DNA from: Sipunculus nudus
Lineage: Eukaryota > Annelida > Sipuncula > Golfingiida > Sipunculidae
DNA: 64,000 nucleotides
Assembly: GCA_026874595.1 (NCBI GenBank)
Contig: CM049313.1
Location: 56,937,159-57,001,158 of the forward strand
Direction: 5' to 3'
The translations under genes were made by a program, and so were the position numbers. The notes below the pieces were generated by a model that was given only the letters and a program-made list of their open reading frames with translations, was not told the origin of the DNA and made no database searches. Positions 2,730 to 61,057 of the stretch are shown here, piece after piece. Numbering within the stretch: the first letter of the stretch is position 1; every line of letters begins with the position of its first letter.

Positions 2730-5700
2730 AGCTCAGCTGACTATAAGTCATCTGAGCTATAGTCGTGGTCCATTGTCCGTCGTCCGTCCGGATGTCCGTC
2801 AGTAAGACTGGCACGTTTCGACACTGATGGACCTACGAATCTGAAATTCGGCATACAGTTAGATGTCCCCAAAATCTCCTACCATACCAAAAATTGAGTC
2901 AATAGGACTTTGTTCCTTCGAGATATTAAGGAAAAACCTCAATTTTTTATTAGAAATCTATTTTCACACTTCAGGACTGCCTAATATCAAAACCACTCAT
3001 CTGGTTTTCTTCATATTTACCATAAATATTCCTCTATATAGTTCTTATGTACATGCCGGATATTAAGTCAGTATTATATAATTGTATCCGCCAAAACAGA
3101 GTTTTGCGGATACTATGCTTTCAGCTGCACGCCGCCGCCACCGCCACGTAGGTGTCCGGAGAACTCCTCCGTAACTGCTGGGCGGAATTTTACGAAACCC
3201 GGGATTATGTTCGGGTCACATGTGAACTCCTGCGCCCCGATTTTGTTTTGACCTCTGACCTTTCCTCTGCGCTCTGCGTCTGTTTGTGCATCTGTTTCCG
3301 CACAAAAACCCACATATCTCGGGAACCGTTTGACAGATCAGGAAAAAATTTTTTTGCGCAAATGTAGCCCTTGGAGAGCTTTATAACATACACAAAAAAT
3401 GGTGGCACCACCTGCAACCATGTTTGCACAGTGTCCATCTGTTCGTCTGCCTTGGGTTAAAATCACTCATATCTCTGCAGTGATTTGACTAATCCACCTG
3501 AAATTCGGCATGCGTATACATCTTGGATAGCTTTCTTGATTTTATGACAGATGGCGCAACCTACATTCACGTTTACGCTGCAGACATCCAAGCTCATATC
3601 TCGGGAACCATTTGACCGATTGGGCCAAAATTTTGCATGTGTATAGATCTCACATAGCTCTTTATCATACGCAAAACTGGTGGCGCCACCTGCAGCCATC
3701 TTTGCACAGCTCTCGTCTGCCATGGGATAAAATCACTCATATCTCGGCAGTGGTTTGACATATCTGCCTAAAATTTTGCAGGTTTATACATCCCCGACAG
3801 TTCTCTTGATTGTATGACAGGTGGCGCCACCTGCATTCTTGTTTATGCAGCAGACATGCAAGCTCATATCTTGGGAACTGTTTGACCGATTGGGCCAAAG
3901 TTTTGCATGTGTATAGTTCTCACATAGCTCTTTATCATACACAAAACTGGTGGCACCACCTTTAACCATTTTTGCACAGCGTCCATCTGTTTGTCTGCCA
4001 CGGGCTAAAATCACTCATAAACATATAGTGGTTTGACTTATCTGCCTCAAATTTTGCATATGTATACAACTTGGACGGCTTTCTGGATTTTGTGGTAGGC
4101 TGCAGACATCCATGCTAATATGCAACACTTCACTCTATTTCCCCTTGCCACTCAATCCATGCCTCACTTCACCCGTTCCACTCTGATATAGGCGGATACA
4201 CGTAGTCGCTTGTCGACTTCCCGTATTCTAGTTTAAAAAAGTTATGGGCCCAAACATAATGGACTTTGTAAAAAAATCAGGAAGATATTTGGTCACTTAA
4301 GACCAAAAGTGTTAAAGGTAGGGACTTTTTTCCAGTAATACAATTTTAATTAATCAAAATTTAATTGTATACCAAAAATAAGATCAAAATCTGTTAAATT
4401 TTTTTAAATATTGGCAAAAATATAAAATTGGTACCTTAAATTTTTCCAACTTTGGCCAAGGCACATTTTTTTCCTGTAAGTACTGTGGATTTAATTTTCA
4501 CAGCATGTATACATAAGGATTTAATCTGTTAAAATCTGAAATTTGAAAATAAAAGCTGCAAAATTAGGCTAGTTATTGAATTTTTTTGGAGGCTCTTGTT
4601 GTATTTCCTTACATTGTCAAGCAGTCCACTTTGATGACTGTAGGTCATTCAGTGCACATCTCTATGCTCCCCAGGCTGTTGGCATAATTTTAGATGTCCC
4701 CAAAATCTCCTACCATACCAAAAATTGGGTCATTAGGACTTCATTCCTTCGAGATATTAAGGAAAAAAAACTCTGTTTTCCATAAAAAAAGCCATTGTTC
4801 CACTTTAAGGCTGCCTAATATCAAAACCACTGATCTGTTTTTGATCATATTTAGTATTCACATTCTTTCATACATTTTCTATGAACATACAAAAAATTAG
4901 GTCAGTATTGGGTATTATTTTGAAGTTATGGGCCAAAACATAATGCAATTTTTTAAAAAATCAGGAAATATATTTACTCACCTAACATGAGAATTGCTGG
5001 ACCTAGAGACTTTTTTTTCAGGAATATAACTTTATTTAATCTAGATTCAATTGTTTACCCAAAATTAGATCTGAATTTTGCAAATTTTTCAAGTTATTAG
5101 CATTAATTAAAAATTAATACCTTAAATTTTGTCCAACTTTGGCACTGTTGATTTAATTTTCACAGCATATATACATAATGATTTAATCTTTTAAAATCTG
5201 AAATTTCAAAGAAATTGATTGGAAAGAATAGCTTTAATTCATGTTTTCATACACCATGTCAAGTGTTGTTTACATCTAATCCACCTAGTAGTACAGCCTT
5301 CACTTGCATTATGTAACCCACCCCAGGCAGCTTGCCTTGGCCCAGCTTGGCTACTACTAGCAGGCTTCCCCTCTGCCCTGCACTCCCCCCCCCCCCCCCA
5401 GCTGATAAACTAGATGAATGTTATAATTTTCTGTATTTTATTTTATTCTTGGACATGCTACATTTTAGATTTTGTATTGTACCACCAGGGTTACAATGAT
5501 TAAAGTGTACATTTAATTGTGTCCACAAAGTGGTGTATTGCTATGAAAGTGTGGATGTTCATGAGATAAGTAATGCTTACTTCAGAAGAGTAAAAACTTC
5601 ACCAGGTGTGAAATTGACTATTAATTCCAGTAAAAAATTAAAACTGGGATAGTAATTAGCACAATGATATTGTTTGTCCCTCATTCAACCAACAGTGTGT

Positions 5701-7003: not shown

Positions 7004-7545
7004 TTTTATTACTGTGATTAATAATCATCATTCAAATACAGTCCCTATTAAATTAAATTTGACTATGATAGTAGCCTTATTTATACAGTTCTTATCATTG
7101 GTTGTAACCATACTGTTGGTAAAATATACATCATTAGTTCCTGATGCATAACTAAATGGTGCATGGTTAAGTGATAGTTAATTTTGGTAACACATGTTTA
7201 TTTCCTTATGGTCTAACTGATTAATGGATTTTGAAAACATGGGATCAAGCAGGTCGATGTTAATGTGTTGGTGCACAGTGTCATTTGCTATGTCATGTAA
7301 GGTGTCATTTGTAAACCAGTTTAACCAGAGAGGATAGGTAAGCCTCAATCCATTGAAAGTAAGTGGGTATACAAGGATAATTTGCCACATTTGACCCTTT
7401 GTGATTGTGGCCCAATCATAGCCACTAGCCACTAAGGGTCCAATCACAGCCAAAAAAAAACTCCCTCCACAGATAAATTCAGGCCTTTGCACAGCCCTTG
7501 GTATATCTTTGTATTGTGTCTCCCTGCCATTATCAAATGCTTTTT
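7004..7545. other. Intergenic stretch, nothing recognised
   Basis: AT-rich DNA between two F1 copies. A 104-codon minus-strand frame (7178-7492) lacks any recognisable domain and is probably chance. Confidence 0.5.
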
Positions 7546-8640
7546 AGCTCAGCTGAATGAAAGTCATTTGAGCTATAGCGATCACTCTTTGTCCGTCGTC
7601 CGTATGTCCGTCTGTCCGTCTGTCGGTCCATTAACCAGGCACAAATCGTAACCGCTGGACTTAGAATCATGTAACTTTGCATTCTGAGAGGTCCATGAAA
7701 AATCTTCTTGGAAACCAGAAATTATGATTTTTGGCATACATATTGATCATGAGATGTTCCATCAGCTCCTGCAGACTGGTGGTGCCACCTGTATTTTTTA
7801 CGAATTTTTTTCTATTTTTTAGACCTTTAAAAATGTGAACATCTGTTAACAGGGCACAAATCGTAAAGACCTAGAATCTTCATTCTTGTCATGCAAGGAG
7901 GCCCATGAAAAGTGTTTGTGGAAACCTGAAATTAGGTCTCTGTTTCCCATATCCTTCAAGCTATAGGACTCCAAAGTATCCCTCAGAATAATGGACAATT
8001 TGATACAAAAGCTGAAGTATCTGAACAACTAATGCAGAGATTACCATGATTCTTTGCATGGATATTGATTATGGAGTGTTTCATTAGTTTCTGCAAACTG
8101 GTGGTGCCGCCTATATTTTATTCAATTTTCATATTTTTTTTCTCAATTTTTGAGACCTTTAAGGATGCTGTCATCTGTTAATGTGGCACAAATTGTAACA
8201 ACTGGACCTAGAATCTTCATTCTTGTCATGCAAGGAGGCCCATGAAAAGTGCCTGTGGAAACTTGAAATTAGGTCTCTGCTACGCATATCATTCAAGCTA
8301 TAGGACTCTGAAGTATCCCTCAGAATAATGGAAAACTTAATACAAAAGCTGAAGTATCTGAACAACTAATGCAGAGATCACCATGATTCTTTGCATGGAT
8401 ATTGACCATTAAGTTTTTTTATTAGTTTCTGCAGACTGGTGGAGCCACCTGTATTTTTTTTTAAAGTTTACAAATTTTTTCTCTATTTTTGAGATATATA
8501 AATTCAGACACAATCTTGGCCTGTTGGTTAATCTGTTTGATGTTTCAGTTGAATGGGTATATACTACCATTCAGATGATAAAATTTCCTTTTGCAAATCT
8601 CTTCCCAGTCAGCTGAGTGTCATGACCCTTGGGTCACTTG
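7546..8640 (+). mobile_element. Helentron-like element, family F1 (copy b, short form)
   Basis: It starts AGCTCAGCTGA after TTTTT and ends TCAGCTGAG, then the palindrome TGACCCTTGGGTCA and CTTG before TT. Inside are a GTCC/GTCTGTCC microsatellite and about three ~330-bp tandem units, each holding an acaggGCACAAATCGTAA-like phrase and ending in a GGTGGYGCCNCCTGTATTTTT phrase. Confidence 0.75.
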
Positions 8641-9121
8641 TTCATATCTTTCAAGGGCCCATGGCCTCCATATTTGTTTCATATGAAGCCCAGATGGCAC
8701 AGGTTGGATCTCTGCACAGACTAAAACATGGATGTCTCATATCACACAACAGATGTTTCAGGGGTATTCAGCTAATTTAAACAAACTTTTATTTTGGGCT
8801 GGAATCTGGAAAATTTGGACAGAGGTTCAGTGATCAATTATCAATTACATTAGGATTGACTCTTAAGAGAAATGCTGATATTGATGTTGGCATTGGATTA
8901 TTGATAAAATATTAGTATGTTATGTTATTATTAAAATTTTATTTGTACTGCATAAACAGAGAAAGAGAGAAAGAGAGCTCATACAACCACTGTGTGAAAA
9001 AAATACAAAGTGCAGTATAGATTTATGTAGTATAAACATTTTGAATGTTCACTAGCTTCTATGGGATTTTGTGATTTTATAAATTGAACTTCTGCCTCTA
9101 TATTTATCCATTAAACTTAAA

Positions 9122-9444
9122 TTAAAGGGGCCCAGTCACCTATAAAGCATAAGACAAAAAATGGTTTCTTCCCTTTAAAAGTAATCTGTATCTGCCAAAA
9201 TATTGCCCTGAAACCATTTGCTTACTCCTGTAAACGATTGTTAAAAACAGTAAACCGGGTGCAATTGCAGGTGTAAACATAAACACAGTGTATCAGGCCG
9301 TGTGCTGAGTGGAGCCACAACACGTGTCAGTCAATAGATTCCTTGACTGACTTTGCTAAAAAAATGAAATACATGTTCCCCCTGGCTGAAACAAAGCGTG
9401 TTGCCCCTATTTATTGGAATCTGCTCCTGATTGTTTCCCTTTAA
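9122..9444. mobile_element. MITE with TTAA-type ends
   Basis: The segment begins TTAAAGGGG and ends TTTCCCTTTAA, so short inverted ends lie inside a TTAA at each side. That is the target type of piggyBac-like elements. It has no coding capacity. The class assignment rests only on the ends. Confidence 0.4.
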
Positions 9445-9538: not shown

Positions 9539-11318
9539 TAGCACACCACTGAGCTTATGTGATGGAGTGGCATCTTCCATCAGACGTACGTTAACCCATA
9601 CTATAAAAACCGCAAATTGTTCATTATTTCACAGAAATGATCCCTGGAACATTTTCTCATGTTTGAAAGAGTGGTTCCAGTTTGGTGATTTTTGGCTGAC
9701 TTACAGTAAGTTGGTCACATGAATTATATTTGAAATTAAGGTATTGGTGGCGCCACCTGCATTGACTTTTTTTGTACAGGGTCATCTGTCATCGGCTCTT
9801 TAATCCATTATATTTTAGAAGCTAGAATCACCAAATTTTATGCAAAAATGTCAAATGATGTGCGATTAAGCTTTTTGTGGCACCACCTACATCAGCTGTA
9901 TTTTACAGGGAAAAAGCTATAAAATCTGAACAAAATTTTCTTCCCAAAAATTATTCAACCACATTGATCAATATTTCACATAAATGATCCCAGAGACAAG
10001 CTCCCTCAAGTTTTTTAGCGAACCTGTGAGCTTATGCAATGATGCAGCGTTGTCCGTCGTTGCGTTGTGCGTCGTCTTTATGTTAACCATAGCTTACTCT
10101 AAAACGGCAGGAACTAGCATCACCAATTTTTTTTTCAAATAATCAGTCATCTGAAAAACTTTTTGTTTATTTTTTTTCTAACTGCATTTTCTAAGATTTT
10201 ATAGGGAAAAAGCTAAAAAAGCTTTAAAAATCTTCTTCTCTGAAACTGTTCTGCCAGATTGTCCCATATTTCACAGAAATGATCCCTGGAACAATCTCTC
10301 AAGTTTGTTGGAATGGTTCCAGTTGGGAGATTTTTGGCCGAGTTACAGGAGGTTGAACTTGGTCATCTGTCCAAAAAAAAGCACACTAAAATTTCTGTCT
10401 TAGAAACTGCTAGAGCTATCATTACCAAATTTTATGCCAATATTTGTCACATGTCACATGTTTTATGATGAAACTGATAAGCTGATTGGTTTAAATTTTA
10501 CAAGAATTATTCTATGGTAAGGTACTGCCAGTTTTATTAGAATAGATTTGGTAAATGCAGCTTTAAAAAGTAGTGTAGCCAATTGAAAAAAAGGCTTTCT
10601 GTGTTTGAAAACAGATTTCACAACATGCTGAGTTTCAGCAGCCAAGTCAAGAGGTCACTCAGTACAACCAGGTGGGGTCTAGACATCACCATGGCATCTG
10701 ACCTGGCTCTGTCTGGCGCCTAGACATTGTGTATAGACGTCTAGACACAGTGTCTAGATGCAGAATGCCCAGATTAGAACTATTGGAACTATATCTTTAA
10801 ACTGTTTGAAAAAACTTGGATTGCATTTTTAGCGAACCTGTGAGCTTATGCAGTGGTGTTGCTATTTCCATCTTCTGTCATCCATTGTGCGTCATAGCCA
10901 TCTCAAAAAGGGCAGGAGCTAGCAACACTAATTTTCTTGCAAAAAATTTGTCATCTAAAAAATTCTATTGGGTGTTGCTTATTTCTTGGCTAACTGTATT
11001 TTCTTAGATTTTATAGGGAACAAGCTAAAAAACATTCAAAAATGTTCTTCACTGAAACCATGCTGCCAAATTGTACATTCATCTGTCCCAATAATCCTCC
11101 CTGGCAAAAAGAACATATCCAAAAAATCCTAACTGATACATCCTAGGTTTAAAATGTCCTTGTCCGAAACTTGCAGGTCCGAAACGTCCATTTTGCTGAA
11201 ATCATAATGACTAAGGAAGATATGCAGGACATAAGAGGATCAATATTAAATTTTAAAAATAAACCTCCATTCATACTCCCTAACTTTGCACAGGTTCACA
11301 TTAGGCCTGTACGCCTTG
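9539..11318 (+). mobile_element. Helentron-like family F4 cluster (copies a and b)
   Basis: The F4 start signature AGCGAACCTGTGAGCTTATG occurs at 10017 and 10831, and in worn form near 9545. The cluster ends at 11318 with CACAGGTTCACATTAGGCCTGTACGCCTTG before TTTT; this is a slightly mutated 3' terminus (subterminal inverted motif, AGGCCT hairpin, CTTG). The copy at 10831-11318 keeps both ends and appears inserted in the older one. Confidence 0.65.
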
Positions 11319-13889: not shown

Positions 13890-15225
13890 TTTAAACAAGA
13901 AATATCCTTGGGTAGGGTTCTCTCATTTATACAAGAATAGATCGGGTTCATTGATTTTTGGTAGACTTATAGGTAGCTGAAATTGGTCTTGTGGCCAAGT
14001 AAGCCTATATCAAACTGATGGCTGCAATAGTCTTGATTCTCAGGTAGCCTTTGTTCAAATTTACTTAATGATTTTTGGCTGAATTATTGGAATGTTACCA
14101 TTGAAAGGACTGAGATGGTTTGGTAAGCAAAGCTAGTAGATTTATTGGTTTAACAGACAGCTCTTTTGGTATTTAAGTATAGTTTAGCCTTTACAGGAAA
14201 CATAAATAATTGGTGTCCATATTGAGCTTGTGTGTAAGATGAATCAGTGTATCAAACATATATTCTGATTTTGCTTTCAATAGGCATCTGATATTGTCAT
14301 ATGAATATGTCAGCTTGAAAATAACATTGAAGCCAAAGTTTTTCAGTATGTATAATCAGGCCAAGATTGTGCTGGCTTGTATCTATAAAAACTTGGCAGA
14401 CTGCAACCTATTTCAAATTTGGCCACAGGCCAGGTTTCTGTCTGTATCTATTTTGCAGATGGCCAACTGTATTAGATTAGGCAACAGGTCAAACATTCAC
14501 TAAGTACAGCCAGGCACAGGTCGAGATTTCACCCAGTGCAGTAGCTGCACCTGGCATTAGTTCCGGTTCACTTGAGTGCAACTGCCTTCCACAGCTGAGC
14601 TTGGCCAGCCCAGTGAATCTGACTCAAGAGAAGTTTGATGTATTAGTCTGAAATTTTGGCTTGGCTATGCATCTTTGAAGGCTTTCTCCCACACAAGACT
14701 GGTGTTGCCACCTGCATGATGGTGCCACCTACAATAATTTTTGCAGTGTATGTCCCTGCTTATTTCTCATGAGTGATTTGACATACAAGTCTGAAATTGT
14801 GCATACCCATACATCTCAGATAGTTTTATTGTATACATACAAGACTTGTGGCATGATCTACAATTGTTTTGGGTTTCATGCATGTGCACACAGCTCAAGA
14901 GTTGTTTGAAGTATCTGGCTGATATTTTAAATGTCATTCCATCTTTGATGGCTTTCCTAAACACAAGACTGGCGGTGCCACCTGCAATCATTTTTGTAAT
15001 ACAAATGTACATCCATGCCATTTCAGTAGTGTCCTTTTTGTAATTGGTGCTTGTACTCAGGTTTAAAATGTTTAATACTTGCATTGTACATGTACATGTC
15101 ACACATTGTTTAGCAGAGGTAAACCATGGAAAGCACAACAAATCAGTCACATGCTGCAGTAGATATTCAGTTTCTGACTTTTGAATCATGTCTGGGTACT
15201 CAGATTGTCAGTATCCTGTTTTTTT
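13890..15225 (+). repeat. F4-related fragment without clear ends
   Basis: Segments such as cactcagtgcagccaggt (near 14500) and the acaagactGGTG-type units (near 14695 and 14965) match 46200-47050 inside F4 copy c. No intact terminus is seen. The frames on both strands are repeat shadows. Confidence 0.5.
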
Positions 15226-50400: not shown

Positions 50401-53400
50401 CGGCTACTAAACTTAGAAAATTTCATGAAAAATAGAAATTTTCATGACAGATACACATGTACGGACTTTTTATCTCAATGCCTACAGATACGGGCCTGAT
50501 TTTTGGTTTGTGGGCAGTTAATGACCAGTTACAGATCGAGTTCTTGTTTTGTCCCAGTTGACCTACTTTTGACCAATTGACTGCTCCTGAACATAGAAAG
50601 TTTCATGAAAAATAGAAATTTTCATAACAAATGCATATGACAGACTTTTTACGCAGTGCCTGCAGATACCACCCTGATTTTTTATGTGTGGGCAGATAAT
50701 GACCAGTTACAGATCGAGTTTGTGTTTCGTCCCGGTTGACCTATTTTTGATTGTTTTACCGCTCCTAAACATAGAAAATTTCATGAAAAATATAATTTTC
50801 AAGACCAGTGTACATATACAGTCGTTTTTAGCCCTCAGCTCATAGGCTGATGGGCTATTGGCGTCACCCAAGCTGTCTGTCTGTCTGTCCGTCTGTCTGT
50901 CCCGTGTCTGTTTACTTTTACATTGTGAGCAGGATATCTCTAAAAGGATTCACCGTTGGAATTTTATTTCATCAGTGAAGATGTATATCGATAAAATCTT
51001 GGTCAAGTTCGAAGATGGGTGACCTTGACCCATTCTTCTACATTTTAGAGCTGATTTTAGAAAAACAGTCAGAAGCTTATATCTCAGGACACATTGTGTG
51101 GATTTTCACATAACTTACTATGCTCATTGGGACTGATGGTCTGTACGTGCTGCACAATTTAGGTGGCAACACCTGTAATTTCTGATTTTTAAGCGAACCT
51201 GTGAGCTTATGCGATGGTGCGGTGTCGTACGTCGTGTGTGGTCCGTAGTCCTTTCATTAACCATAGCTATCTCCAAAATGGCAGAATCTAGCATCACCAA
51301 ATTCTTTGTAAATAATCAGTCATCTGAAAAACTCTATCTTATTTTGTTATGCTCCCGCCACAAAGTGGCCGGGGCATATAATTTTACCCATGTCCATCAT
51401 TCCGTCCTTCCGTCATTTCGAAATCAAACAGTTGTACGGACTTTTTTTCGCAATGCCTGCAGATATTGGCCTGATTTTTGATGTGTGGGCAGATATAGAC
51501 CAGTTACAGATTGTGTTCGCGTTTGGTCCCGGTTGACCTACTTTTGACCGTTTCACGGCTCCTAAACTTAGAAAATTTCATGAAAAATATAAATATTCAT
51601 GACAGATACACATGTACGGACTTTTTTTCGCAACGCATGCAGATATTGGCCTGATTTTTGGTGTGTGAGCAGATATAGACCAGTTACAGATCGAGGTTCG
51701 CGTTTCGTCCCGGTTGACCTACTTTTGACCGTTTTACGGCTCCTAAACTTAGAAAATTTCATGAAAATAGAAATATTCATGACAGATACACATGTACAGA
51801 CTTTATCGCAATGCCTGCAGATATTGGCCTAATTTTTGGTGTGTGGGCAGATATAGACCAGTTACAGATCGTGTTCGCGTTTCGTCCTGGTTGACCTACT
51901 TTTGACTGGTTTACGGCTCCTGAACATAGAAAATTTCATGTAAAATATATATTTTCATGACAAATACACTTGTACAGACTTTTCTTCACAATACCTGCAG
52001 ATATTGGCCTGATTTTTGGTGTGTGGGCAGATAATGACCAGTTACAGATCAAGTTCATGTTTTGTCCCAGTTGACCTACTTTTGCCTGTTTGACGGTGCT
52101 CTAACATAGAAAATTTCATAAAAAGGTACACATGTATGGTATTTTTTTCGCAGTGCCTGCAGATACGGGCCTGATTTTTGGTGTGTAGGCAGATAATGAC
52201 CAGTTACAGATTGAGTTCTTGTTTTGTCTCAGTTGACCTACTTTTGACCATTTGACTGCTCCTTAACATAGAAAGTTTCATGAAAAATATAAATTTTCAT
52301 AACAAATGCATATGTACTGACTTTTTTTCCTCAATGCCTGCAGATACCACCCTGATTTTTTTTGTGTTTGCAGATAATGACAGTTACAGATCGAGTTTGC
52401 TTTTCATCCCGGTTGACCTACTTTTGATTGTTTTACGGCTCCTAAACATAGAAAATTTCATGAAAGACAGAAATTTTTATGGAAAATGCACATGTATGGA
52501 CTTTTTTTCACAATGCCTGCATATACTGGCATGATTTTTGGTGTGTTGCTTGATATGACCCGTTACAGATCAAGTTTGCATTTTGCCCTTGTTGACCTAC
52601 TTTTGACCATACGACACCTCCTGAACTTAAAAAATTTTCCAAATTTTACAAATGTTTCTAATCTGCCCGAGGCGGGGGCATTTGTGTCGTTCCGACACAT
52701 CTAGTTTATTTTTTTTCTAACAGCATTTTCTTAGATTTTATAAGGAAAAAACTAAAAAAGCTTTAAAAATCTTCTCTGAAACTTTCCAGCCAAATTATCC
52801 AGTATTTCAAAGAAATGATCCCTGGAACAATCTCTCTCAAGTTTGTTCGAATGGTTTCAGTTCAGAGATTTTTGGCCGAGTTACAGGAGGTTGAACTTAG
52901 TCATCTGTCCAAAAAAGCACACTAAAATTAAAATCTCATAAACTGCTAGAGCTATAATCACCAAATTTTATACCAATGTTTGTCACAAATGTCATATCTG
53001 AAATTGAGGTATTGATGGCGCCATCTACATTGATGTGTTTTTTTTTCAAGTGAAAATGTAATTTTAAACTCTACTAGCTTATACACTGATTTATGATGAA
53101 ACTGTTAAGCTGATTGGTTTAAACTTTACAAGAATTATTCTATGGTAGAGTTCTGCCAGTTTTATAAGAATAGATTGGGTAAATACAGCTTTAAAAAAGC
53201 ATTGTAGCCAATTGAAAAAGGCCTACTCTGTTTGAAAACAGATTTGGCGAATTGCTGAGTTTCAGCAGCCAAGTCAAGAGGTCACTCAGTACAAACAGGT
53301 GGGGTCCAGACAATACCATGGCAACTGACTTGGCTCTGGCCGTGTCTAGACAATGTCTAGATGAAGGATTCCCAGATTATTGGAACTATATCTTTCAACT

Positions 53401-56400
53401 ATTTGAAAAAACTTGGTTTGCATTTTAAGTGAATTGGGTTTATCATCAGGTCACATGTGAACTGCTGCACTCTCATTTTTTGTTAACCTCTGACCTTTCC
53501 TCGCTACCCAGCGTCCATTTGAGTGTCTGTTTCATAAACCCACATATCTGCGGAACTGTTTGACCGATCAGGCAAAAAATTTTGCCTTAATGTAGCCCTT
53601 TGATAGCTTTAAAACATACACTAAAAAATGGTGGCACCACCTGCAACTATTTTTGCACAGTGTCCATCTGTTTATCTGCTTTGGGATAAAATCACTCATA
53701 TCTCAGCAGTGGTTTGACTTTTCCACCTGAAATTTTACAGGTTTATACATCCTGGACAGCATTCTCAATTTTATGACAGGTGGCGCCACATTCAAATTTA
53801 CTCTGCAGACATCCAAGCTCATATCTCGGGAACTGTTTGACTGATTGAGCCAAAATTTTGCATGTGTATAGATCTCACATAGCTCTTCATCATAGGCAAA
53901 ACTGGTGGCGCCACCTGCAACCTCTTATGCACAGAGTCCATCTGTTCATCGGCCTTGGGATAAAATCACTCATATCTCAGCAGTGATTTGACTTATCCAC
54001 CTGAAATTTTGCAGGTTTATACATCCTGGACAGCTTTCGTGATTTTATGACAGGTGGTGCCACCTACATTCAGGTTTACTCTGCAGACATCCAAGCTCAT
54101 ATCTCGGGAACTGTTTGACTGATTGGGCCAAAATTTTGCCTGTGTATAGATCTGACATAGCTCTTCATCATAGGCAAAACCTGACGGCGCCACCTTCAAC
54201 CAGTTATGCACAGAGTCCATCGGTTCATCTGCCTTGGGATAATATCGCTCATATCTCAGAATTGGTTTGACTTATCCACCTGAAATTTTGTAGGTTTATA
54301 CATCCTGGACAGCTTTCTCGATTTTATGACAGGTGGCGCCACCTACATTAAGGTTTACTTTGCAGACATCCAAGCTCATATCTCAGGAACCGTCTGACCG
54401 ATTGGGCCAAAATTTTGCCTGTGTATAGATCTCACATAGCTTTTCATCATAGGCAAAACTGTCGGTGCCACCTGCAACCTCTTATGCACAGAGTCCATCT
54501 GTTCATCTGCCTTGGGATAAAATCACTCATATCTCAGCAGTGGTTTGACTTATCCACCTGAAATTTTGCAGTTCAATACATCCTGGACAACTCTCTTGAT
54601 TTTATGATAGGTGGCGCCACCTACATTCAGGTTTACTCTGCAGACATTCAAGCTCATATCTCAGGAACCTTCTGACCGATTTACCCAAACTTTTTAATGT
54701 GTATAGATCTGACATAGCTCTTCATCATAGGCAAAACTGGTGGCGCCACCTGGAACCATTTATGTACAGAGTCCATCTTTTCATCTGCCTTGGGATAATA
54801 TCACTCATATCTCAGCAGTGGTTTGACTTTTCCACCTGAAATTTTGCAGGTTTGTACATCCTGGACAGCTTTCAAGATTTTATGACAGGTGGCACCACCT
54901 ACATTCAGGTTCACTCTGCAGACATCCAAGCTCATATCTCGGGAACTGTATGACTGATTGGGCCAAAATTTGCCTGTGTATAGATCTGACATAGCTCTTC
55001 ATCATAGGCAAAACTGGTGGGGTCACCTGCAACCATTTATGCACAGAGTCCATCTGTTCATCTGCCTTGGGATAAAATCACTCATATCTCAGAAGTGGTT
55101 TGACTTATCCACCTGAAATTTTGCAGGTTTATACATCCTGGACAGCTTTCTCGATTTTATGACAGGTGGTGCCACCTTCATTCAGATTTACTCTGCAGAC
55201 ATCCAAGCTCATAACACGGGATCCATTTGACCGTTTGGGCCAAAATTTTGCTTGTGTATAGTTCTCACATAGCTTTTCATCATAGGCAAAACTGGTGGTG
55301 CCACCTGCAACCTCTTATGCACAGCATCCATCTGTTCATCTGCCTTGGGATAAAATCACTCATATCTCAGCAGTGGTTTGACTTATCCACCTGAAATATG
55401 CAGGTTAATACATCCTGGACAATTCTCTTGCTTTTATGATAGATGGCGCCACCTACATTCAGGTTTACTCTGCAGACATTCAAGCTCATATCTCAGGAAC
55501 CTTTTGACCGATTTACCCAAACTTTTTAATGTGTATAGATCTGACATAGCTCTTCATCATAGGCAAAACTGGTGGCGCCACCTGGAACCATTTATGTACA
55601 GAGTCCATCTTTTCATCTGCCTTGGGATAATATCACTCATATCTCAGCAGTGGTTTGACTTTTCCACCTGAAATTTTGCAGGTTTGTACATCATGGACAG
55701 CTTTCTCGATTTTTTTACAGGTGGCACCACCTACTTTCAGGTTCACTCTGCACACATCCAAGCTCATATCTCGGGAACTGTATGACTGATTGGGCCAAAA
55801 TTTGCCTGTGTATTGATCTGACATAGCTCTTCATCATAGGCAAAACTGGTGGTGCCACCTGCAACCATTTATGCACAGAGTCCATCTATTCATCTGCCTT
55901 GGGATAAAAATCACTTATATCTCAGAAGTGGTTTGACTTATCCACCTGAAATTTTGCAGGAATATACATCCTGGACAGCTTTCTTGATTTTATGATAGGT
56001 GGCGCCACCTTCATTCAGATTTACTCTGCAGACATCCAAGCTCATAACAGGGGATCCATTTGACTGTTTGGTCCAAAATTTTGCTTGTGTATAGATCTCA
56101 CATAGCTCTTCATCATAGGCAAAACTGGTGGCTCCACCTGCAACCATTTATGTACAGGGTCCATCTTTTCATCTGCCTTGGGATAATATCACTCATATTT
56201 CAGCAGTGGTTTGACTTATCCACCTGAAATTTTGCAGGTTTATTCATCCTTGACAATTTTCTCGATTTTATGACAGGTGGCACCACCTACATTCACTTTT
56301 ACACTGCTGACATCCATGCTAAATTGCAACACACCTCATTCTATTCCCCTTGCCACTTAATCCATGCCTCACTTCACCTGTCCCACTCTGATTTCTGCGG

Positions 56401-59400
56401 ATACACAGTCGCTTGTCGACTACCCATATTCTAGTTTTAAAATGTCCTAGTCTGAATCTTGCAGGTCCGAAATGTCCATTTTGTTGAAATCATAATGACT
56501 AAGGTAGATATGCAGGACTTAAGAGGATCAATATTACATTTTAAAAATAAACCTCCATTCATACTCCCAAACTTTGCACAGGTTCGCATTAGGCCTGTAG
56601 GCCTTGTTAATCAATTTTTATTGGGTTTTTCAATTTTGGCCTTGTGAGCAGGATATCTCTAAAAGGATTCACCGTTGGAATTTTATTTCATCAGTGAAGA
56701 TGTATATCAACAAAATCTTGGTCAAGTGCAAAGATGGGTGACCTTGACCTATTTTTCCTTGTTTTAGAGCATATTAAACAAAATCACTGAGAAGCTTATA
56801 TCTCAGGAACCATTGTGTGGATTTTCACAAAACTTACTATGATCATTTGGAATGATGGTCACAATTTTGGTTGCACCACCTACAATTTCTGATTTTTTAA
56901 TGATATTTTACCGAATTTTTTAATTTTGGCCTTTTGTGCAGGATATCACCAAAGGGATTCAACACAGGAACTTCATTTCTTCAGTGCTATTGCATGATAT
57001 TTACATTATCTTGGTCAAGTTCAAAGATGGGTGATTTTGACCTACTTTTCAAGGTCACAGAGCTTAGTATTGAAAAAAAACTTAGGAGCTTATTTCTCAG
57101 GAAGCATTTGGTGAATTATTATGAAACATGGTACATACCGCTCCAATTTAAATTTATGACTGATTATCAGCTTTTGCTAATAATCTGGTTTCGCAATGCA
57201 ATGCTTACAGATACTGGCCTAATGTTTGGTCTGTCGGCGCATAATGACCACTTACAGATCGAGTTTTGTTTCGTCCCAGTTCACCTATTTTTGACCATAT
57301 GACAGATCCTGAACATAGAAAATTTCATTAAAGACAGAAATTTTTATGAAAAATGCATTTGTATGGACTTTTTTTCACAATGCCAGCAGATACTGGCCTG
57401 ATTTTTGGTGTGTTGCTTGATAATGACCCATTACAGATCGAGTTTGCATTTTGCCCTTGTTGCATTTTGTACTTTTGACCATATGACACCTGAACTTAAA
57501 AAATTTTACAAAATTTAACAAATGTTTCTAATTTGCCCCAGGCGGGGGCATTCGTGTCGTTCCAACACATCTAGTTTTTGTTTTTTTTTTTACAATTTTT
57601 TTCTCTATTTTATGCGATCTTTAAAGATGCTGTCATCTGTTGACAGGGCACAAAGTGTAACAACTGGACCTAGAATCTTCATACTTGACATCCAGGGAGG
57701 TCCATGAAAAATCGCCTTGGAAACCTGAAATTAGGTCTTTGTTACCTATATCATCCTAGTTATGGTGCTGGATAGTATCCCACAGAATAATGCAAACATT
57801 GATTCAAAAACTCAAGTAACTGAACAACTAATGCATTGATCACCATGATTCTGTGCATGGATTTTGATCATGGAGTATTTCATCAGTTTCTGCAGACTGG
57901 TGACGCAACCTGTATTTTTTTCAATTTTTTATCATTTTTTTTCACTATTTTTGAAGTCTTAAAAGATGCAGTCCAGTCATCTGTTAACAGGGAACATATC
58001 ATAACCACTGGACCTAGAATCTTCTCACTTGACACTCAGGGAGATCCATGAAAAGTGTCATTGGAAACCTAAAATTAGTTCTTTGTTACCCATAAGTTTT
58101 GTGGATACTATGTTTTTGCCAGGGTTCCACTGCCACTGCCGCCACCCGCCACGTTCGTTTCTGGAGAACTTCTCTGAGACTACTGGATGCATTTTTCTGA
58201 AACTTACACCACATGTGAACTGGTGCCTAACCAATTTGCGTTGACCTTTGACCTTTCCTCTCTGCCCAGCATCCATTTGTGCGTCTGTTTCCATATATAA
58301 ACCCACATCTCTGGAACCGTTTGACCGATCAGGAAAAAATTTTGGACAAATGTAGCCCTTGGATAGCATTATAACATACACAAAATATGGTGGCACCACT
58401 TGCAACCATGTTTGCACAGTGTCCATCTGTACATCTGCCTTGGGTTAAAATCACTCATATCTCTGCAGTGGTTTGACTAATTCACCTGAAATTCGGCATG
58501 TGTATACATCTTGGATAGCTTTCTTGATTTTATGACAGATGGCACCAACTACATTCTAGTTTACGCTGCAGACGCCCAAGCTCATATCTCGGGAACCGTT
58601 TGACTGATTGGGCCAAAATTTTGTATGTGTATAGATCTCACATAGCTCTTTATCATACACAAAACTGTAAGGGCCACCTGCAACCATTTTTGCACAGCAT
58701 CCGTCTGTTTGTCTGCCTTGGGCTCAAATCACTCATATCTCTGTAGTGGTTTGACATAACTGCCTAAAATTTTGCAGGTTTATACATCCTGGACAGCTTT
58801 CTTGATTTTATGACAGGTGGCACCAACTTCATTCTAATTAAAGCTGCAGACATCCAAGCTCATATCTCGAGAACAGTTTGAGCGATTGGGCCAAAATTTT
58901 GTGTGTGTTTAGATCTCACATAGCTCTTTATCATACACAAAACTGGAGGGGCCACCTGCAATCATTTTTGCACATAGTTTGTCTGTTTATCTGCCGTGGG
59001 CTAAAATAACTCATACCTCTGTAATGGTTTGATTTATCTGCCTAAAAATTTTGCATGTTTATAGATCTTGGACAGCTTTATCTATTTTTTTGGCAGGTGG
59101 CACCACCTACATTCATGTTAATGCTGCAGACATTCAGGCTTATATCTCAGGACTGGTTGGACATATGCCCCTGAAATTTTGCATGTGTATAGATCTCACA
59201 TAGCTCTAAATCATACACAAATTTGGTGGCACGACCTTCCACCATTTTTGCACAAATCCTACTGTTTTGGGATAAAATCACTCATTTACATGTAGTGGTT
59301 TGACTTTACTGCCTAAAATTTTACATATGCATACAACTTGGACAGCTTTCTGGATTTGTGGTAGGTGGCGCAACCTACATACACATTTCAGCTGCAGACA

Positions 59401-61057
59401 TCCATGCTAATATGCAACACACCTCACTCTATTACCCCTTGCTACTCAATTCATGCCTCACTTCACCTGTTCCACTCTGATTTTGGCGGATACATGTAGT
59501 CGCTTGTTGACTACCTGTATTCTAGTTTAAAAAAGTTATGGGCCCAAACATATTGCACTTTGTAAAAATTCAGGAAAAATATTTGGTCGCTTAACACAAA
59601 AAAATGTTAAAGCTAGGGACCTTTTTTCACTAGTATAACTTTAATTAATCATAATTTAATCGTATACCCAAAATTAGATCAAAATCTTTTAAATTTTTCA
59701 AAATATTAGCAAAAATATAAAATGGGTACCTTAAATTTTGCCCAAATTTGAATATCGCACATTTTTTTCTTGTAAGTATATTTAATTTATTTTTCACAGC
59801 TGGCATTCATGTGGATTTAATTAGTTGAATTCTGAAATTTGAAAGTATAAGCTTAAAAATTATGCTGATTATTGAAGTTTTTCAGATGCTCTAATGTATT
59901 TGCATTTTGTATCCAAAACCACACTCTTGCTCACTACAGCCTTGCCTAGGTAATCGTATTAGTGATACAACACTGGCAGAACACAACTGCTGTAATTAAC
60001 ATGCACTTATTCTCATAGGCCCTACCCTAACCCCCCCACCCCCCCCCCCCCAGGTGCCCCCCTCCCCACCACCACGACCACCAACACCACCAATTATATT
60101 GCAATACATGGTTTGTTATTGTCAAATGTATTTCTTTAAATGTAAAGCTGTTTTTGATCCAATGTGCAACTTTTCTTGAAATATTAATTCAAGAAGTAAT
60201 CTAGGAGATGCCACGTTGTTCTTATGTAGCATTTTTAAGAAATTATTTCCTTTTAAATAATTAAACAAAATATAATTTAACCCATCAGTAGGCATAATTT
60301 GATAATATATGAAACAAATCATGGATTAATAAAGGTGCAATTAAAACTGTGAATTCTGGGGTGTTATTTTCATATATTTATTGCTTTGCAAATTTAAAAA
60401 ATATATCTTATAAAAAAAAATATATCTGTAAGCATAATGTGATGTTACCTGACTAAACTAAGTATAAATGTTGCTGCAATTTAGATTTGTGAATCAATTT
60501 CAATATTCAGATATATATAATAAACTGTAAATATATAGTAAAATTTATAAACTTACTAAAAATGACTTAACAAAAGAAAAAATAGGATCTCATGCAAATA
60601 TTTGTTCATTATTTTCCTGTCTCAGTAGAATGGAAATTAAAGTTATTTGCTTTGTTTTCCATCTCTCTGCCTGTTTTTAAATATTTAAAAATAATTTCAT
60701 TTAAATTAAATTTTATCCTTTACATATATGCAGAGTTGCTGTAACTCCCACCTGTCCCTGTAAGCACCATTGAATTAAAATCTGTTATCTGTATTTATAG
60801 CCAAAGGTGTTGTAACTCCTCCCCCCCCCCCCAAAGTCATTGAGCCCTAGTTCCTGAGCACTGAGGATAGTATTTTTATTGCAACTTCAAAAAATCTATG
60901 GTGATGCAGTTATAACTGTCACAATCAGCTGATCGCCATGACCAATGAGTCCCTTGTTTTTACAGGAGATCTAGAAGGAAGAGCTCTCCCACCTGTCCCC
61001 AGAGACAAGATTCTTATTCGACGGGACAGGTTGAGGAAAGGAAAAGAATTAGGAAAG
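19637..61057 (+). CDS. Janus kinase (JAK) homologue, 13 exons, 3' end beyond window
   Basis: This is a non-receptor tyrosine kinase of the JAK/Tyk2/hopscotch family. In the family, FERM-SH2 docks on cytokine-receptor tails, JH2 restrains JH1, and JH1 phosphorylates receptor and STATs. Exons join with consistent phase into 855 residues. FERM is about 20-345 (F3 ends with LLDKYYRLSV). SH2 is about 355-470, starting CHGPVS like vertebrate JAKs. JH2 is about 510-775: VAVK lysine K543, HGN in place of HRD at 633-635, DPG in place of DFG at 657-659, APE-like motif as APEL. A linker follows, and JH1 begins near 842 (RDRLRKGKELGK). The length to this point matches human JAK2, whose JH1 starts at a similar residue. 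The start ATG at 19637 is the first in its exon and precedes F1 by about 20 residues; an upstream coding exon is possible. The JH1 catalytic exons are not in the window. Family is secure; which vertebrate JAK it is nearest to is not decided. Confidence 0.93.
20935..21183 (+). repeat. Minisatellite of acceptor-like units abutting JAK exon 2
   Basis: Units of about 36-40 bp of the form gctcaggtgtaattgttgtttcaggtcatcatt are repeated six or seven times. The last unit supplies the real acceptor at 21182-21183. Each unit offers a decoy tttcag|gt, and the text after it (GTCATCATTGCT) resembles the exon start (GTGATTGTTGCC). Confidence 0.8.
21184..21276 (+). CDS. JAK exon 2: FERM F3 strand segment
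   Basis: The acceptor is gttgtttcag|GTGATT and the donor is CCAGCG|gtgaga. It has 31 codons (residues 279-309) in phase 0 at both ends. The segment AIEDIMDVQLLHEP corresponds to the JAK2 F3 region containing FPNIIDVSIKQ. The 713-nt intron before it may hide another small F3 exon, because the F3 strands between exons 1 and 2 look short. Confidence 0.85.
21459..25009 (+). mobile_element. Helentron-like element, family F1 (copy e), in JAK intron 2
   Basis: It begins AGCTCAGCTGACT...CATCTGAGCT after TTTTT and ends CAGCTGAGTGCC, the palindrome GACCCATGGGTC, CCCTTG, TTT. It shares its interior with copies a, d and f. At 21800-21815 it is uninterrupted where copy a carries an F3 insertion. It holds a separate 687-bp insertion at 21889-22575. 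Confidence 0.8.
21889..22575. mobile_element. 687-bp insertion of unknown class with 11-bp flanking repeats
   Basis: Copies of AAAACATGTTA at 21878-21888 and 22576-22586 flank a block absent from the other F1 copies, where the host text runs on as ...aaaaatgttaaagctagg. The block is visibly richer in G+C than its surroundings. It has no clear terminal inverted repeat and no recognisable domain in its short frames (for example 22327-22524). Confidence 0.6.
25010..25690. repeat. Intron 2 tail with degenerate repeats
   Basis: About three diverged units between 25090 and 25480 repeat a pattern of ttgatttt...caaaactcac, accaatagatt, cacacatatttaat and aggtcagaggtcac. No exon was found. It ends at the acceptor ttgtttgtag. 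Confidence 0.45.
25691..25848 (+). CDS. JAK exon 3: end of FERM F3 and start of SH2
   Basis: The acceptor is ttgtttgtag|ATGCTG and the donor is GGTCAG|gtcagt. It encodes residues 310-361 plus two bases of codon 362. SFLALLDKYYRLSV is the F3 C-terminal helix (compare SFVSLIDGYYRLTA in JAK2), followed by the KNKCHGPV lead into SH2. Its ATG is internal, not a start. Confidence 0.92.
26396..26942 (+). repeat. ~32-bp minisatellite ending at the JAK exon 4 acceptor
   Basis: Sixteen or so diverged units of the form ggtatgaacagtttatattt + actgtgcaggctaa. The final unit (cagtttatatttattatgcag) is the functional acceptor of exon 4. Every unit therefore carries an acceptor look-alike. Confidence 0.85.
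26943..27078 (+). CDS. JAK exon 4: N-terminal half of SH2
   Basis: The acceptor is tttattatgcag|C and the donor is GTGATGAAG|gtatgt. Codon 362 joins as AG+C (Ser), giving CHGPVSMKW. It encodes residues 363-407 and ends GLDLVMK. By alignment with GLYVLRCS of JAK2, the phosphotyrosine-binding arginine position is Met406. Confidence 0.9.
27566..27706. repeat. Imperfect inverted repeat in intron 4
   Basis: The arm ggtctggcacagggcaaaga...accaatgag (27571-27614) faces ctcattggtccgtctcttgg...ctgtgccagcc (27672-27706). The pair could fold into a stem of roughly 35 bp with a loop of about 55 nt. No gene is seen in it. Confidence 0.6.
27930..28220 (+). repeat. Two-unit tandem duplication (~145 bp) in intron 4
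   Basis: The phrases ttgactttgta, ccaacat, cacaaaatttcat, gaactttctg and cttttcagtgcaggattt occur in the same order twice (from about 27937 and 28090). The open frame on the minus strand is a shadow of this. Confidence 0.7.
28835..29045 (+). CDS. JAK exon 5: C-terminal half of SH2
   Basis: The acceptor is tgcctttaag|GATCAA and the donor is AAATAC|gtaagt. It encodes residues 408-477. IFVYPILWDYKF resembles the KYFLTFAV strand region. FDSLDDLIRFFQTD matches the JAK2 FSSLKDLLNCYQ helix, and LRKCLSPKR matches the FTKCCPPKP end. The last base C joins CT of exon 6 as Pro. Confidence 0.92.
29955..30240 (+). mobile_element. tRNA-derived SINE (copy 1, + orientation)
   Basis: A pol III A-box-like segment (TAATAGCAAAGGCTCCGG, 29977 on) is followed by a B-box-like GGGTTTGGATCCC (30015-30027). 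The body after it contains ttaagtgccat and agggagcta. A reversed copy at 37615-37890 shares the same order of phrases, which supports a SINE family. Confidence 0.65.
30262..31122 (+). mobile_element. Helitron-like element, family F2 (copy a), in intron 5
   Basis: The 5' end ATGCCCCCGCCAC aaa GTGGCCGGGGCAT is a hairpin. The 3' end has a worn GAGGCACATCTAG followed by TTTTTT. The interior is about four ~170-180-bp units with gcagatattggcctaatttttggtgtg and tgacctacttttgac phrases. There is no coding capacity. Confidence 0.75.
31711..31836 (+). CDS. JAK exon 6: SH2-JH2 linker and JH2 start
   Basis: The acceptor is cttattttcag|CTGACC and the donor is GTTATAG|gtaagt. It encodes residues about 478-519, an acidic linker (EIEEGPEIDEP) then VPSVELRDVIG, equivalent to the JAK2 segment that leads into the JH2 first strand. 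The final G joins GA of exon 7 as Gly520. Confidence 0.88.
31946..32109. mobile_element. Short MITE with TACAGT-type inverted ends
   Basis: It begins TACAGTGGAGCCTGCCTTAAAGACCACC and ends GGTTTTATAACACAGGCTTCAATGTA. The end is close to the inverted complement of the start. It is flanked by TA and has no coding capacity. Confidence 0.6.
32729..32835 (+). CDS. JAK exon 7: JH2 glycine-loop region and VAVK lysine
   Basis: The acceptor is ttttcatgcag|GA and the donor is TTACAG|gtgggc. It encodes residues 520-555. The loop reads G-K-G-E-F-T-E-L, a reduced glycine loop comparable to GQGTFTKI of JAK2 JH2. MVAVKYL carries the strand-3 lysine (K543). Confidence 0.9.
33078..33203. mobile_element. Second TACAGT-type MITE, left end worn
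   Basis: AACCTGTCTGTAAGACCACC at the left and CTTATAACACAGGTTTCACTGTA at the right match the inverted ends seen at 31946-32109. It lies in intron 7. Confidence 0.5.
33289..33501 (+). CDS. JAK exon 8: JH2 N-lobe and hinge
   Basis: The acceptor is ttcttgcacag|TTTTTC and the donor is TTTATT|gtaagt. It has 71 codons (556-626) in phase 0 at both ends. LLRVHGICMDGRFQVIQDYARHG corresponds to the strand 4-5 and hinge region (compare [24 protein letters not shown]). The GSLEEYLKN helix and AEQLASALYFI follow. Confidence 0.93.
33502..34700. other. Intron 8, no exon found
   Basis: A 103-codon minus-strand frame (33754-34065) has no recognisable domain. A 21-bp unit (ctacacacagatagtgttta) is repeated about three times at 34400-34465. 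Confidence 0.5.
34701..34852 (+). CDS. JAK exon 9: JH2 catalytic-loop and DFG-equivalent
   Basis: The acceptor is tttattgtag|CATGAG and the donor is CATAG|gtcagt. It encodes residues 627-676. FHGNIQCRNILV stands where active kinases have HRD(L)xxxN: Asp is replaced by Asn635 and the metal-binding Asn640 is kept. KLADPGLL replaces DFG with DPG. Both substitutions are typical of JAK JH2. Confidence 0.95.
35833..35971 (+). CDS. JAK exon 10: JH2 activation-segment end and helix F
   Basis: The acceptor is gacattcaag|ATGC and the donor is CCTCAG|gttggg. Codon 677 joins AG+A (Arg), then CPWLAPELY (compare PWLPPEC in JAK2). ATDMYAFGITLWEMFAGG is the helix F motif with its conserved Asp. It encodes residues 677-723. 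Confidence 0.94.
36300..36783 (+). repeat. ~40-bp degenerate minisatellite in intron 10
   Basis: Units resemble gctacaggcacacaaacaca + tacagtcacactgtactgga. The same units resume after interruptions at 37533-37620 and 38130-38178. One long frame across it is a shadow. Confidence 0.75.
36784..37532. mobile_element. hAT-like non-autonomous insertion with 8-bp flanking repeat
   Basis: GTAGCTAC occurs at both 36776-36783 and 37533-37540, immediately outside a block unlike the surrounding minisatellite. Near its ends are tatatcacaata and, inverted, tatattgtgata. Eight-base duplications are typical of hAT elements. Caution: gtagctac is also a word of the host array. Confidence 0.5.
37615..37890 (-). 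mobile_element. tRNA-derived SINE (copy 2, reversed)
   Basis: The reverse strand reads GGTGTAATGGCAAAGG, then ATGGGTTTGAAATC (B-box-like), then ttaagtgccatctgcg and agggagct. These match the copy at 29955-30240 in order and spacing. Confidence 0.65.
38293..38449 (+). CDS. JAK exon 11: JH2 C-terminal helices
   Basis: The acceptor is ttatcaatgtag|GTGAGA and the donor is CCGAACG|gtaata. It encodes residues 724-775. LYQLMQECWELDPSNRITARHALRNI is the kinase helix H-I motif with the conserved Arg (compare NCMDYEPDFRPSFRAII). A 2.59-kb duplication begins at the second base of its donor. Confidence 0.93.
38451..41041 (+). repeat. 2.59-kb tandem duplication, copy A
   Basis: From TAATACATTCATAATAG to GATAAATGCTGC the text is repeated at 41042-43631 with only scattered differences. 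The most visible difference is a short swap of minisatellite units near 40405 versus 43000. The shift is 2591 at the left and 2590 at the right. Confidence 0.93.
38606..40802 (+). repeat. 17-bp minisatellite expanded inside a MITE (copy A)
   Basis: About 120 units of CTGCTATCATGACCACC with point variants (taccatg, tttcatg, ccaacc). The block starts TACAGTTGCCTGATGACCACC and ends GGTGGTCATGTTAGTGGGATTTCACTGTA, matching the inverted ends of the MITEs at 31946 and 33078. The period is not a multiple of three and no protein is implied. Confidence 0.85.
41042..43631 (+). repeat. 2.59-kb tandem duplication, copy B
   Basis: Second copy of 38451-41041, including its own minisatellite-bearing MITE (41197-43392). 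The junction at 41041 has ctgc|taataca. Copy B ends at ctgc|tagcat, so the breakpoints share only CTA or similar. Confidence 0.93.
43780..43926 (+). CDS. JAK exon 12: JH2-JH1 linker
   Basis: The acceptor is tgtcatgacag|CTGATT and the donor is GCTTCAG|gtcaga. G of exon 11 joins CT as Ala, giving NADWVYARPDLE. It encodes residues 776-824, an acidic, alanine- and glycine-rich linker. Sequence alone gives weak homology; phase and position support it. F1 repeat text begins 11 nt after its end. Confidence 0.82.
44466..47175 (+). mobile_element. Helentron-like element, family F4 (copy c)
   Basis: It starts AGCGAACCTGTGAGCTTATGCG after a T pair and ends CACAGGTTCGCATTAGGCCTGTAGGCCTTG before TTTT. 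GCGAACCTGTG and CACAGGTTCGC are perfect inverted complements. Worn internal restarts near 45832 and 46384 suggest tandem or nested copies. GGTGGCGCCACC is present at 44919. Confidence 0.75.
47729..48978 (+). mobile_element. Helentron-like element, family F1 (copy g, short form)
   Basis: It begins AGCTCAACTGGCTGTAAGTCATCTGAGCT and ends CAGTCGGCTGAGG, the palindrome TGACCCTTGGGTCA, CTTG before TT. It contains three ~350-bp units of the same kind as copy b, with GGTGGCGCCACCTG at 48064 and 48407. Confidence 0.75.
48979..49817. other. Short stretch between elements in intron 12
   Basis: AT-rich, no exon. A ~75-bp segment ending in cagctcatctccac occurs twice (49520-49600 and 49745-49815). Confidence 0.5.
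51349..52704 (+). mobile_element. Helitron-like element, family F2 (copy c), nested in F4d
   Basis: The 5' hairpin ATGCTCCCGCCAC aaa GTGGCCGGGGCAT begins it. The 3' end is GGCGGGGGCATTTGTGTCG ttc CGACACAT CTAG before TTT. About seven ~175-bp units lie inside. The F4 text continues on both sides as in the F4 copies at 10150 and 44600. Confidence 0.8.
53431..56434 (+). mobile_element. Helitron-like element, family F3 (copy b), 5'-truncated
   Basis: The 5' hairpin is missing; F3 text starts near 53445 (gtcacatgtgaactgctgc). The 3' end is intact: GCGGATACACAGTCGCTTGTCGACTACCCATATT CTAG before TTTT. It carries ten ~278-bp tandem units. Confidence 0.75.
53711..56320 (+). repeat. 278-bp tandem array with a three-monomer higher-order unit (833 bp)
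   Basis: GGTTTGACTT-type unit starts fall at 53711, 53985, 54264, 54542, 54820, 55097, 55375, 55652, 55930 and 56208. Monomers at 54542/55375, 54820/55652 and 55097/55930 pair by private variants: ttacccaaactttttaatg, then gaactgtatgactgattg, then gatccatttgac. Confidence 0.88.
58095..59525 (+). mobile_element. Helitron-like element, family F3 (copy c)
   Basis: It starts at the second arm of the F3 hairpin (TTTTGTGGATACTATG), so the first ~20 bp are lost. It ends GGCGGATACATGTAGTCGCTTGTTGACTACCTGTATT CTAG before TTT. The flank to the right is F1 text of the copy d type. Several ~278-bp units lie inside. Confidence 0.78.
60966..61057 (+). CDS. JAK exon 13: start of the JH1 kinase domain
   Basis: The acceptor is ttgtttttacag|GAGATC and the donor is GGAAAG|gtaagt. 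G of exon 12 joins GA as Gly. It encodes residues 825-855, ending RDRLRKGKELGK, the position of FLQQLGKG in human JAK2. The next exon should supply the rest of the glycine loop (GxFG). The acceptor pyrimidine tract is largely the 3' tail of an F1 element. Confidence 0.85.

Follow-up and report, generated by a model that had tools for sequence, protein, structure and literature searches.

Four HINE-type repeat families of Sipunculus nudus share one terminal design and are probably served by more than one Helentron lineage

The repeat families F1, F2, F3, and F4 in the window (the whole stretch of 64,000 nucleotides analyzed, C8:56937159-57001158) are supported as HINE-type elements, i.e., non-autonomous Helentrons of the rolling-circle group. 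This assignment is based on the design of their ends, their insertion into T runs without duplication, their tandem arrays, and the Rep-coding relatives that carry the F1 and F2 end pairs, and it bears out the Helentron/HINE-type origin proposed in the sequence-only reading. Comparisons of the ends with Rep sequences suggest that each end pair goes with its own lineage within the Helentron group, F1 with beta/gamma, F2 with epsilon, and F4 probably with zeta, and we hold this with high confidence. F1-F4 appear to share their design because they depend on one enzyme class, not on one enzyme. In addition, neighboring insertions of unlike HINE families tend to have a common strand, which is a new and unexplained observation.

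Terminal design, element map, and insertion sites

All four families have a 5' subTIR, an inverted copy of which lies beside a palindromic hairpin near the 3' end, and terminate with CTTG or CTAG against Ts. A motif search of the window and genome-wide signature counts confirmed the four families, with their motifs at the positions read from the letters and a single terminal design. The local second arm of the 5' motif was also seen as claimed, being present in F1-F3 and absent in F4. The F1 5' motif, GCTCAGCTGA, was exact at 2731, 7547, 11454, 15227, and 21459, had one mismatch at 43939, and was diverged at 47730; the F1 3' end (inverted copy, hairpin, and CTTG) occurred at seven places, three of which were exact. 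The F2 5' ends were at 30263, 49818, and 51349 and the F2 3' ends at 52671 and 57541. F3 had a 5' end at 3084 and 3' ends at 4191 and 59485, plus a diverged one at 56396. The F4 5' ends were at 10018, 10832, 44467, and 51193, with a diverged one at 63184, and the F4 3' ends were at 11289, 47146, and 56577.

In the 1.43-Gb genome (153 contigs), the 3'-end signatures of F1, F2, F3, and F4 (24, 22, 22, and 25 bases long, respectively) were counted 13,955, 2,535, 4,330, and 4,403 times. The same signatures read backwards gave 0 matches each in the whole genome. Since the forward signatures are present in thousands and the reversed patterns are absent, the end design is not due to chance. The F1 signatures were balanced between strands (7,070/6,885). 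This F1 count covers the GACCC subtype, not the GGCCC subtype, and exact GACCC signatures occur on average once per 100 kb.

Self-comparison and a tandem-repeat search of the window revealed a modular build, consisting of a 5' module with a GTCC-type microsatellite, an array, and a 3' module. The array units were 337 bp in F1, 180 bp in F2, and 270-278 bp in F3. These repeats are presumably reminiscent of bivalve HINEs.

The sequence-only reading needs correction in two respects: several copies are nested, and the 5' end has been lost from the F3 copies with 3' ends at 59485 and 56396. All elements mapped in the window are on the + strand. An F1 HINE with both ends (2731-7003) is interrupted by an F3 HINE with both ends and a 270-bp array (3084-4231), for which two F1 copies, one near 17415 and one near 21805, show the empty site. 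It is followed by an F1 HINE with a GTCC-type microsatellite, 337-bp units, and a diverged 3' end (7547-8640), an F4 5' end with the adjoining left module (10018-10160), a short F4 HINE with both ends (10832-11318), and three F1 HINEs with both ends: 11454-13889, of the GTCAT..ACTTG subtype; 15227-18822, with five 337-bp units at 15382-17092; and 21459-25009. An F2 5' end with a 180-bp array occurs at 30263-31105 and another at 49818-50829, with no 3' end seen for either. Between them lie the F1 5' end with one mismatch (43939-43996), to which no 3' end of its own was assigned, an F4 HINE with both ends (44467-47175), and an F1 HINE with a diverged 5' end, 337-bp units, and a GTCAT..ACTTG 3' end (47730-48978). 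The F4 HINE at 51193-56606 has both ends and encloses two nested copies: an F2 HINE with both ends in a T run of F4 (51349-52704) and an F3 copy without its 5' end (53436-56434), which has a 278-bp array of 9.7 units and a 3' end abutting F4. The right part of an F2 copy with its 3' end (57197-57574), a 5'-truncated F3 copy inside F1 sequence (58094-59525), an F1 right module with its 3' end (59526-60956), and the diverged F4 5' end (63184-63194) complete the map. The F3 copies ending at 4231 and 59525 stop at the identical position of two F1 copies, which reflects either a traveling F1+F3 composite or a hot spot. A 17-bp satellite array of 275 units was also found at 38618-43284; it contains two 2.59-kb blocks that are 99.6% identical, and the surrounding stretch has a GC skew of about -0.3 to -0.4.

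Empty sites demonstrated T-run insertion without target duplication for F2 and F3. The F2 copy in L069 reads ATTTTTT|F2|TTCTTG, and the homologous stretch upstream of L014 reads ATTTTTTCTTG. The F3 copy in F1 reads TATAATT|F3|TTTAAAAAAG, and the corresponding empty site reads TATAATTTTAAAAAG. The empty site of the F2 copy at 51349-52704 is supplied by other F4 copies (10018 and 44467), and a long F2 element on C3 also lies in F4, its left flank matching F4 up to window position 44621 and its right flank matching F4 from 44620. The insertion sites of F1 and F4 were judged by their flanks alone, which have Ts or T/A on both sides and an abutting repeat of 0-4 bases. Target-site duplications had been named in the earlier reading as evidence that would speak against it; none beyond Ts was present at the empty sites, and at the 10 complete end pairs in the window, exact flank repeats that reached both ends had maximum lengths of 0-4 bases, all A/T. 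Canonical Helitrons have a 5'-TC end, insert between A and T, and lack subTIRs, a pattern to which F1-F4 do not conform.

The available parts of the report on Pacific oyster Cg_HINE elements (PMC7492417) describe the same features as those of F1-F4: a subTIR with a complementary local inverted repeat, a GTCC-type microsatellite, a tandem array, a 3' subTIR with a palindrome, insertion at TT without duplication, and several unrelated families per genome. By their description in the same source, bivalve Pearl elements, which have an array between two modules and were re-assigned to non-autonomous Helentrons, are also similar. As far as described in PMC4067079, the Helentron/HINE pairs of mite, Culex, and Drosophila resemble the present elements in that HINE families have their own Helentron, with an RGSPHxH Rep motif, an endonuclease, and empty sites in T runs; F4 differs from these HINEs in having no local second arm. 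The Helraiser/Helibat Helitrons have a 3' hairpin, which acts as a terminator there, and a CTAG end; in contrast to F1-F4, their terminal motifs are 5'-TC and CTAG-3', and the portion of PMC4778049 consulted does not mention a pair of subTIRs.

Rep lineages associated with the ends

A PF14214 profile search gave 143 matches, and 150 of 195 candidates were scored. Downstream of the 63 Rep loci inspected (one being C7:80736648), F1-type ends were found at 23, F2 ends at 2, and F4 ends at 2, one accepted and one rejected. At the remaining 36, the sequence read contained no F1-F4 end; these include 10 alpha loci and several F1-clade Reps, and the stretches stopped short of alpha's own ends and of some F1-clade ends.

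The 23 F1-type 3' ends (21 in short stretches, plus L014 and L016) were in the Rep's own orientation and 3.9-5.8 kb past it. The 3' end was thus found at 23 of 63 Rep loci and the 5' end for gamma alone. Upstream of the gamma Helentron on C17 are an F1 5' end, a GTCC-type microsatellite, and 337-bp units. The element extends from L030:9018 (or an extra 5' end at 8294) to C17:35625476, a length of 14.2 or 14.9 kb; a single 5' start was not fixed because 5' modules are repeated there. Its 5' part matches the window F1 copies at 15221-17129, 47724-48648, and 7541-8494, mostly at 76-85%, and no F1 3' end was found between this part and the ORF. On C10, which was read outside the middle, there were also a matching 5' module (L068) and a 3' end (L037). 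The F1 3' end was found at 3 of 3 beta loci, and the 18 kb upstream of the beta copy L014 contained no F1 5' end. Identity between F1 HINEs and their partner is about 80%, versus 84-99.9% for the mite, Culex, and Drosophila pairs covered in PMC4067079.

The gamma protein has Herpes_teg_N, DUF6570, Helitron_like_N, and PIF1 domains, with Rep and PIF1 above the cut-off, and a sub-threshold Exo_endo_phos match (E 2.7e-4). In alpha, the Rep, PIF1 helicase, and endonuclease all exceeded the cut-off. Helentron partners with an RGSPHxH Rep, a PIF1 helicase, and a fused AP-type endonuclease are thus present, the gamma endonuclease match being below the cut-off. The Rep motif reads RGSPHAH in epsilon, the read part of which has DUF6570 and Helitron_like_N, and RGSTHVH in the zeta Rep L104. 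The Herpes_teg_N match (PF04843) lies in L027, the N-terminal part of gamma; alpha instead has an OTU protease domain elsewhere in its N-terminal half, and we take both domains to be peptidase-like. The alpha Helentrons L001 and L002 with their flanks (L023, L024, L031, and L032) are 97.7-99.4% identical between C7 and C11 over the ~13 kb compared, and these copies look recent. A third alpha-group copy, L003, has DUF6570, OTU, Rep, PIF1, and endonuclease domains. The same genome also encodes Reps with a canonical Helitron look (L005 and L006).

F2 3' ends were found past two epsilon Reps, at C3:41770464 and C5:20308942; the C3 Rep is preceded, at a distance of 7.4 kb, by an F2 5' end with a 180-bp array. 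The C3 element is 12,003 bp long (C3:41766495-41778497) and has both F2 ends, in the order 5' end, array, Rep, and 3' end; it was read except for 3.46 kb in the middle, and its autonomy is putative. Because both outer flanks match F4 contiguously, an F4 copy represents its empty site.

The accepted F4 end belongs to a rearranged locus at C11:50963065, which contains an F4 5' end (L120:531), a nested F1, an inverted F4 piece, the Rep L104, an endonuclease region, and an F4 module; the F4 3' end is present as well, together with a broken F3. From this one locus, F4 probably has a third enzyme lineage (zeta). Two other zeta Reps had no F4 end. The F4 end past C3:52151343 was dropped as a partner; that locus is an alpha relic, and the 2.3 kb between matched neither alpha nor the window. 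The earlier reading had called for an autonomous Rep element for each end pair. Rep-bearing elements with these ends were found for F1 and F2, F4 is represented by the rearranged locus, and no F3 partner was found past the 63 Rep loci, nine of which were taken just for F3. A chimera in L075, near 1320-2356, joins an F3 5' half to an F4 3' end. A CTGGTGGNGCCACCTG-like palindrome recurs beside HINE ends (L030 near 8990, L068 near 730, L033, L120 near 510, and L075 near 1080), and similar sequence occurs in the F3 array unit. The palindrome may belong to a fifth family or be a favored insertion target.

A tree of 36 Reps was midpoint-rooted, with L012 and L104 on long branches; the canonical-type L005 and L006 and the fragment L018 were left out, L020 was not entered, and the Rep of the 23rd F1 locus (C7:70980080) was absent. 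The 22 F1-labelled Reps compared formed one clade (98/92) that also contained L017, a Rep for which no end was found downstream. The two epsilon Reps with F2 ends paired at 100/100 and joined alpha at 97/94. The single F4 Rep, L104, was sister to the F1 clade (100/100). On this evidence, the F1 end pair appears to belong with one Rep clade (beta/gamma), and the F2 ends with the epsilon Rep, in a well-supported other clade that groups with the alpha Helentrons.

Within F1, the end subtypes follow the Rep tree in part. They required 9 changes on the tree, against a shuffled mean of 20.9; the GGCCC subtype took 4 changes, and the mixed GTCAT/GACCC group was scattered as in the shuffles. We also compared 31 different 3' ends of the F1 type, taken from the window and the loci and selected by a filter requiring at least 4 of 6 hairpin pairs. 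Pair 2-11 was A-T in 21, G-C in 10, and another combination in 0. Pair 1-12 was invariant, and each of the other four pairs deviated in 1-5 ends, always on just one side. The switch between A-T and G-C may represent one or a few events. A motif-blind scan of four elements for a hairpin with an inverted copy gave two F1 hairpins without a 5' partner and one weak alpha candidate.

One enzyme or several

The suggestion that the four families parasitise one enzyme was not supported, since F1 and F2 ends accompany different Rep clades (forks 98/92, 100/100, and 97/94). A single enzyme could mobilize F1-F4 if it read only the shape of an inverted motif and a hairpin and tolerated differing ends. The architecture and T-run target common to all four families, the absence of an F3 partner at the 63 loci, and the many F1-F4 copies relative to few intact Reps fit this explanation. 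However, F1 ends accompany the F1 Rep clade in 22 of the 22 cases compared and F2 ends accompany epsilon in 2 of 2, and we regard a single enzyme as improbable. None of the four ends was found past the 10 alpha loci, a weak argument as the alpha elements extend beyond the stretches read.

Chance landing of HINE copies beside Rep genes is a still more doubtful source of these ends: HINEs are abundant and often nested (as at L120 and L075), and L033 and L037 each contain two F1 3' ends, yet a GACCC signature that occurs once per 100 kb contrasts with Rep-oriented F1-type ends in 23 of 63 stretches of mostly 0.8-2.5 kb, at similar distances from the Rep, additional F1 ends in the opposite orientation occur at just two of these loci (L054 and L071), and the F2 element has a contiguous F4 flank on both outer sides.

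With separate lineages as the preferred explanation, and by extension from Helitron work, the Helentron Rep/helicase/endonuclease would recognize the 5' subTIR, unwind the element, and stop at the 3' hairpin, and the single-stranded copy would be joined at a T run without duplication. The matching modules suggest that a HINE may arise when an autonomous element loses its genes and keeps the 5' module, microsatellite, array, and 3' module. Repeated insertion of such elements into each other's T runs would generate nests, with one direction throughout this window.

According to the parts of PMC7492417 available, none of 10 autonomous Helentrons in the Pacific oyster could be related to HINEs; in contrast, F1 and F2 ends and arrays were found here around Rep genes. 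Enzyme partners are thus now indicated for two array-carrying HINE families, the kind left without partners in the oyster. Titles and abstract openings, with subscription journals mostly outside their coverage, contained no report of partners of bivalve HINEs or of Helentron strand domains. An end code that follows the Rep lineage indicates that end recognition is testable by swapping ends.

Strand agreement between neighboring insertions

Strand was examined closely on C1 and in the window, in which 15 of 15 3' ends are on +. On C1 (0-35 Mb, first 100 listed places per family; pairs are not independent), listed places of different families agreed in strand in 34/34 pairs at less than 5 kb, 104/109 at 5-20 kb, 169/199 at 20-50 kb, 177/255 at 50-100 kb, 366/487 at 100-200 kb, 558/903 at 200-400 kb, and 1526/2563 at 0.4-1 Mb, with fractions of 0.53-0.54 beyond 1 Mb. 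A circular-shift null gave about 0.52-0.53, and up to 400 kb, 0 of 400 shifts reached the observed values. Of 70 clusters holding several ends, 63 were unanimous, and 61 of 62 listed ends in the first 1.2 Mb of C1 were on -. Without the first 1.3 Mb, successive values were 22/22, 56/61, 98/128, 90/162 (50-100 kb, not above the null), 199/305 (100-200 kb), 311/570 (22 of 300 shifts as high), and 883/1630 (17 of 300); pairs at 1-2 Mb were below the null (1355/2882). A further F1 subtype (45 places) agreed with the four lists in 45/47, 46/51, 69/88, and 142/194 pairs at 0-20, 20-50, 50-100, and 100-200 kb, respectively, and with F2-F4 alone in 35/37, 35/40, 57/74, and 102/143. A reverse-transcriptase motif, intended as a non-Helentron control of strand, was too rare to use (278 places). 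The consulted parts of PMC7492417 report that oyster HINEs integrate in both orientations and make no mention of the local agreement seen here.

This agreement could result from nesting or from replication-coupled integration. We consider it somewhat probable that it reflects nesting and clustering, in which HINE bodies and flanks have their T runs on the element's own + strand and later arrivals copy its direction. Agreement is strongest below 20 kb, and when the first 1.3 Mb of C1 are excluded it does not exceed the null at 50-100 kb. In the window, the nested pairs examined have the same strand. T runs of at least 7 outnumber A runs in the window by 56:28, but not in the stretches taken as outside elements (6:9). 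However, the ratio within elements, 50:19, predicts an agreement of ~72%, well below that observed in the two shortest distance classes. Without the first 1.3 Mb, an excess also persists at 20-50 and 100-200 kb, and the strands of poly-T14 runs do not follow the HINE strand domains (16/25, 46/79, 42/107, and 130/239), both of which argue against nesting.

Alternatively, we tentatively suggest, by analogy with IS200/IS605, a possible but rather unlikely link between Helentron integration and a strand-polar process, most simply the joining of a single strand to the T-rich lagging-strand template at forks. Unrelated families would then record the local replication direction, with the first 1.2 Mb of C1 as one such domain. 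The orientation of Tn7 and IS200/IS605 insertions follows replication, as stated in the available part of PMC5371812. If replication sets the strand, tens of thousands of old insertions would amount to a map of replication strands across an animal genome, and a single-stranded target in vivo would gain support. The prediction of - at contig starts and + at contig ends was examined with listed places within 1.3 Mb of the ends (54/54 and 100/129 listed; two C1-start places were already in the C1 lists, and the extent of C16 was not seen). The starts of C2 and C11 did not fit, and agreement was found for 5 of 8 listed places at starts and 2 of 2 at ends.
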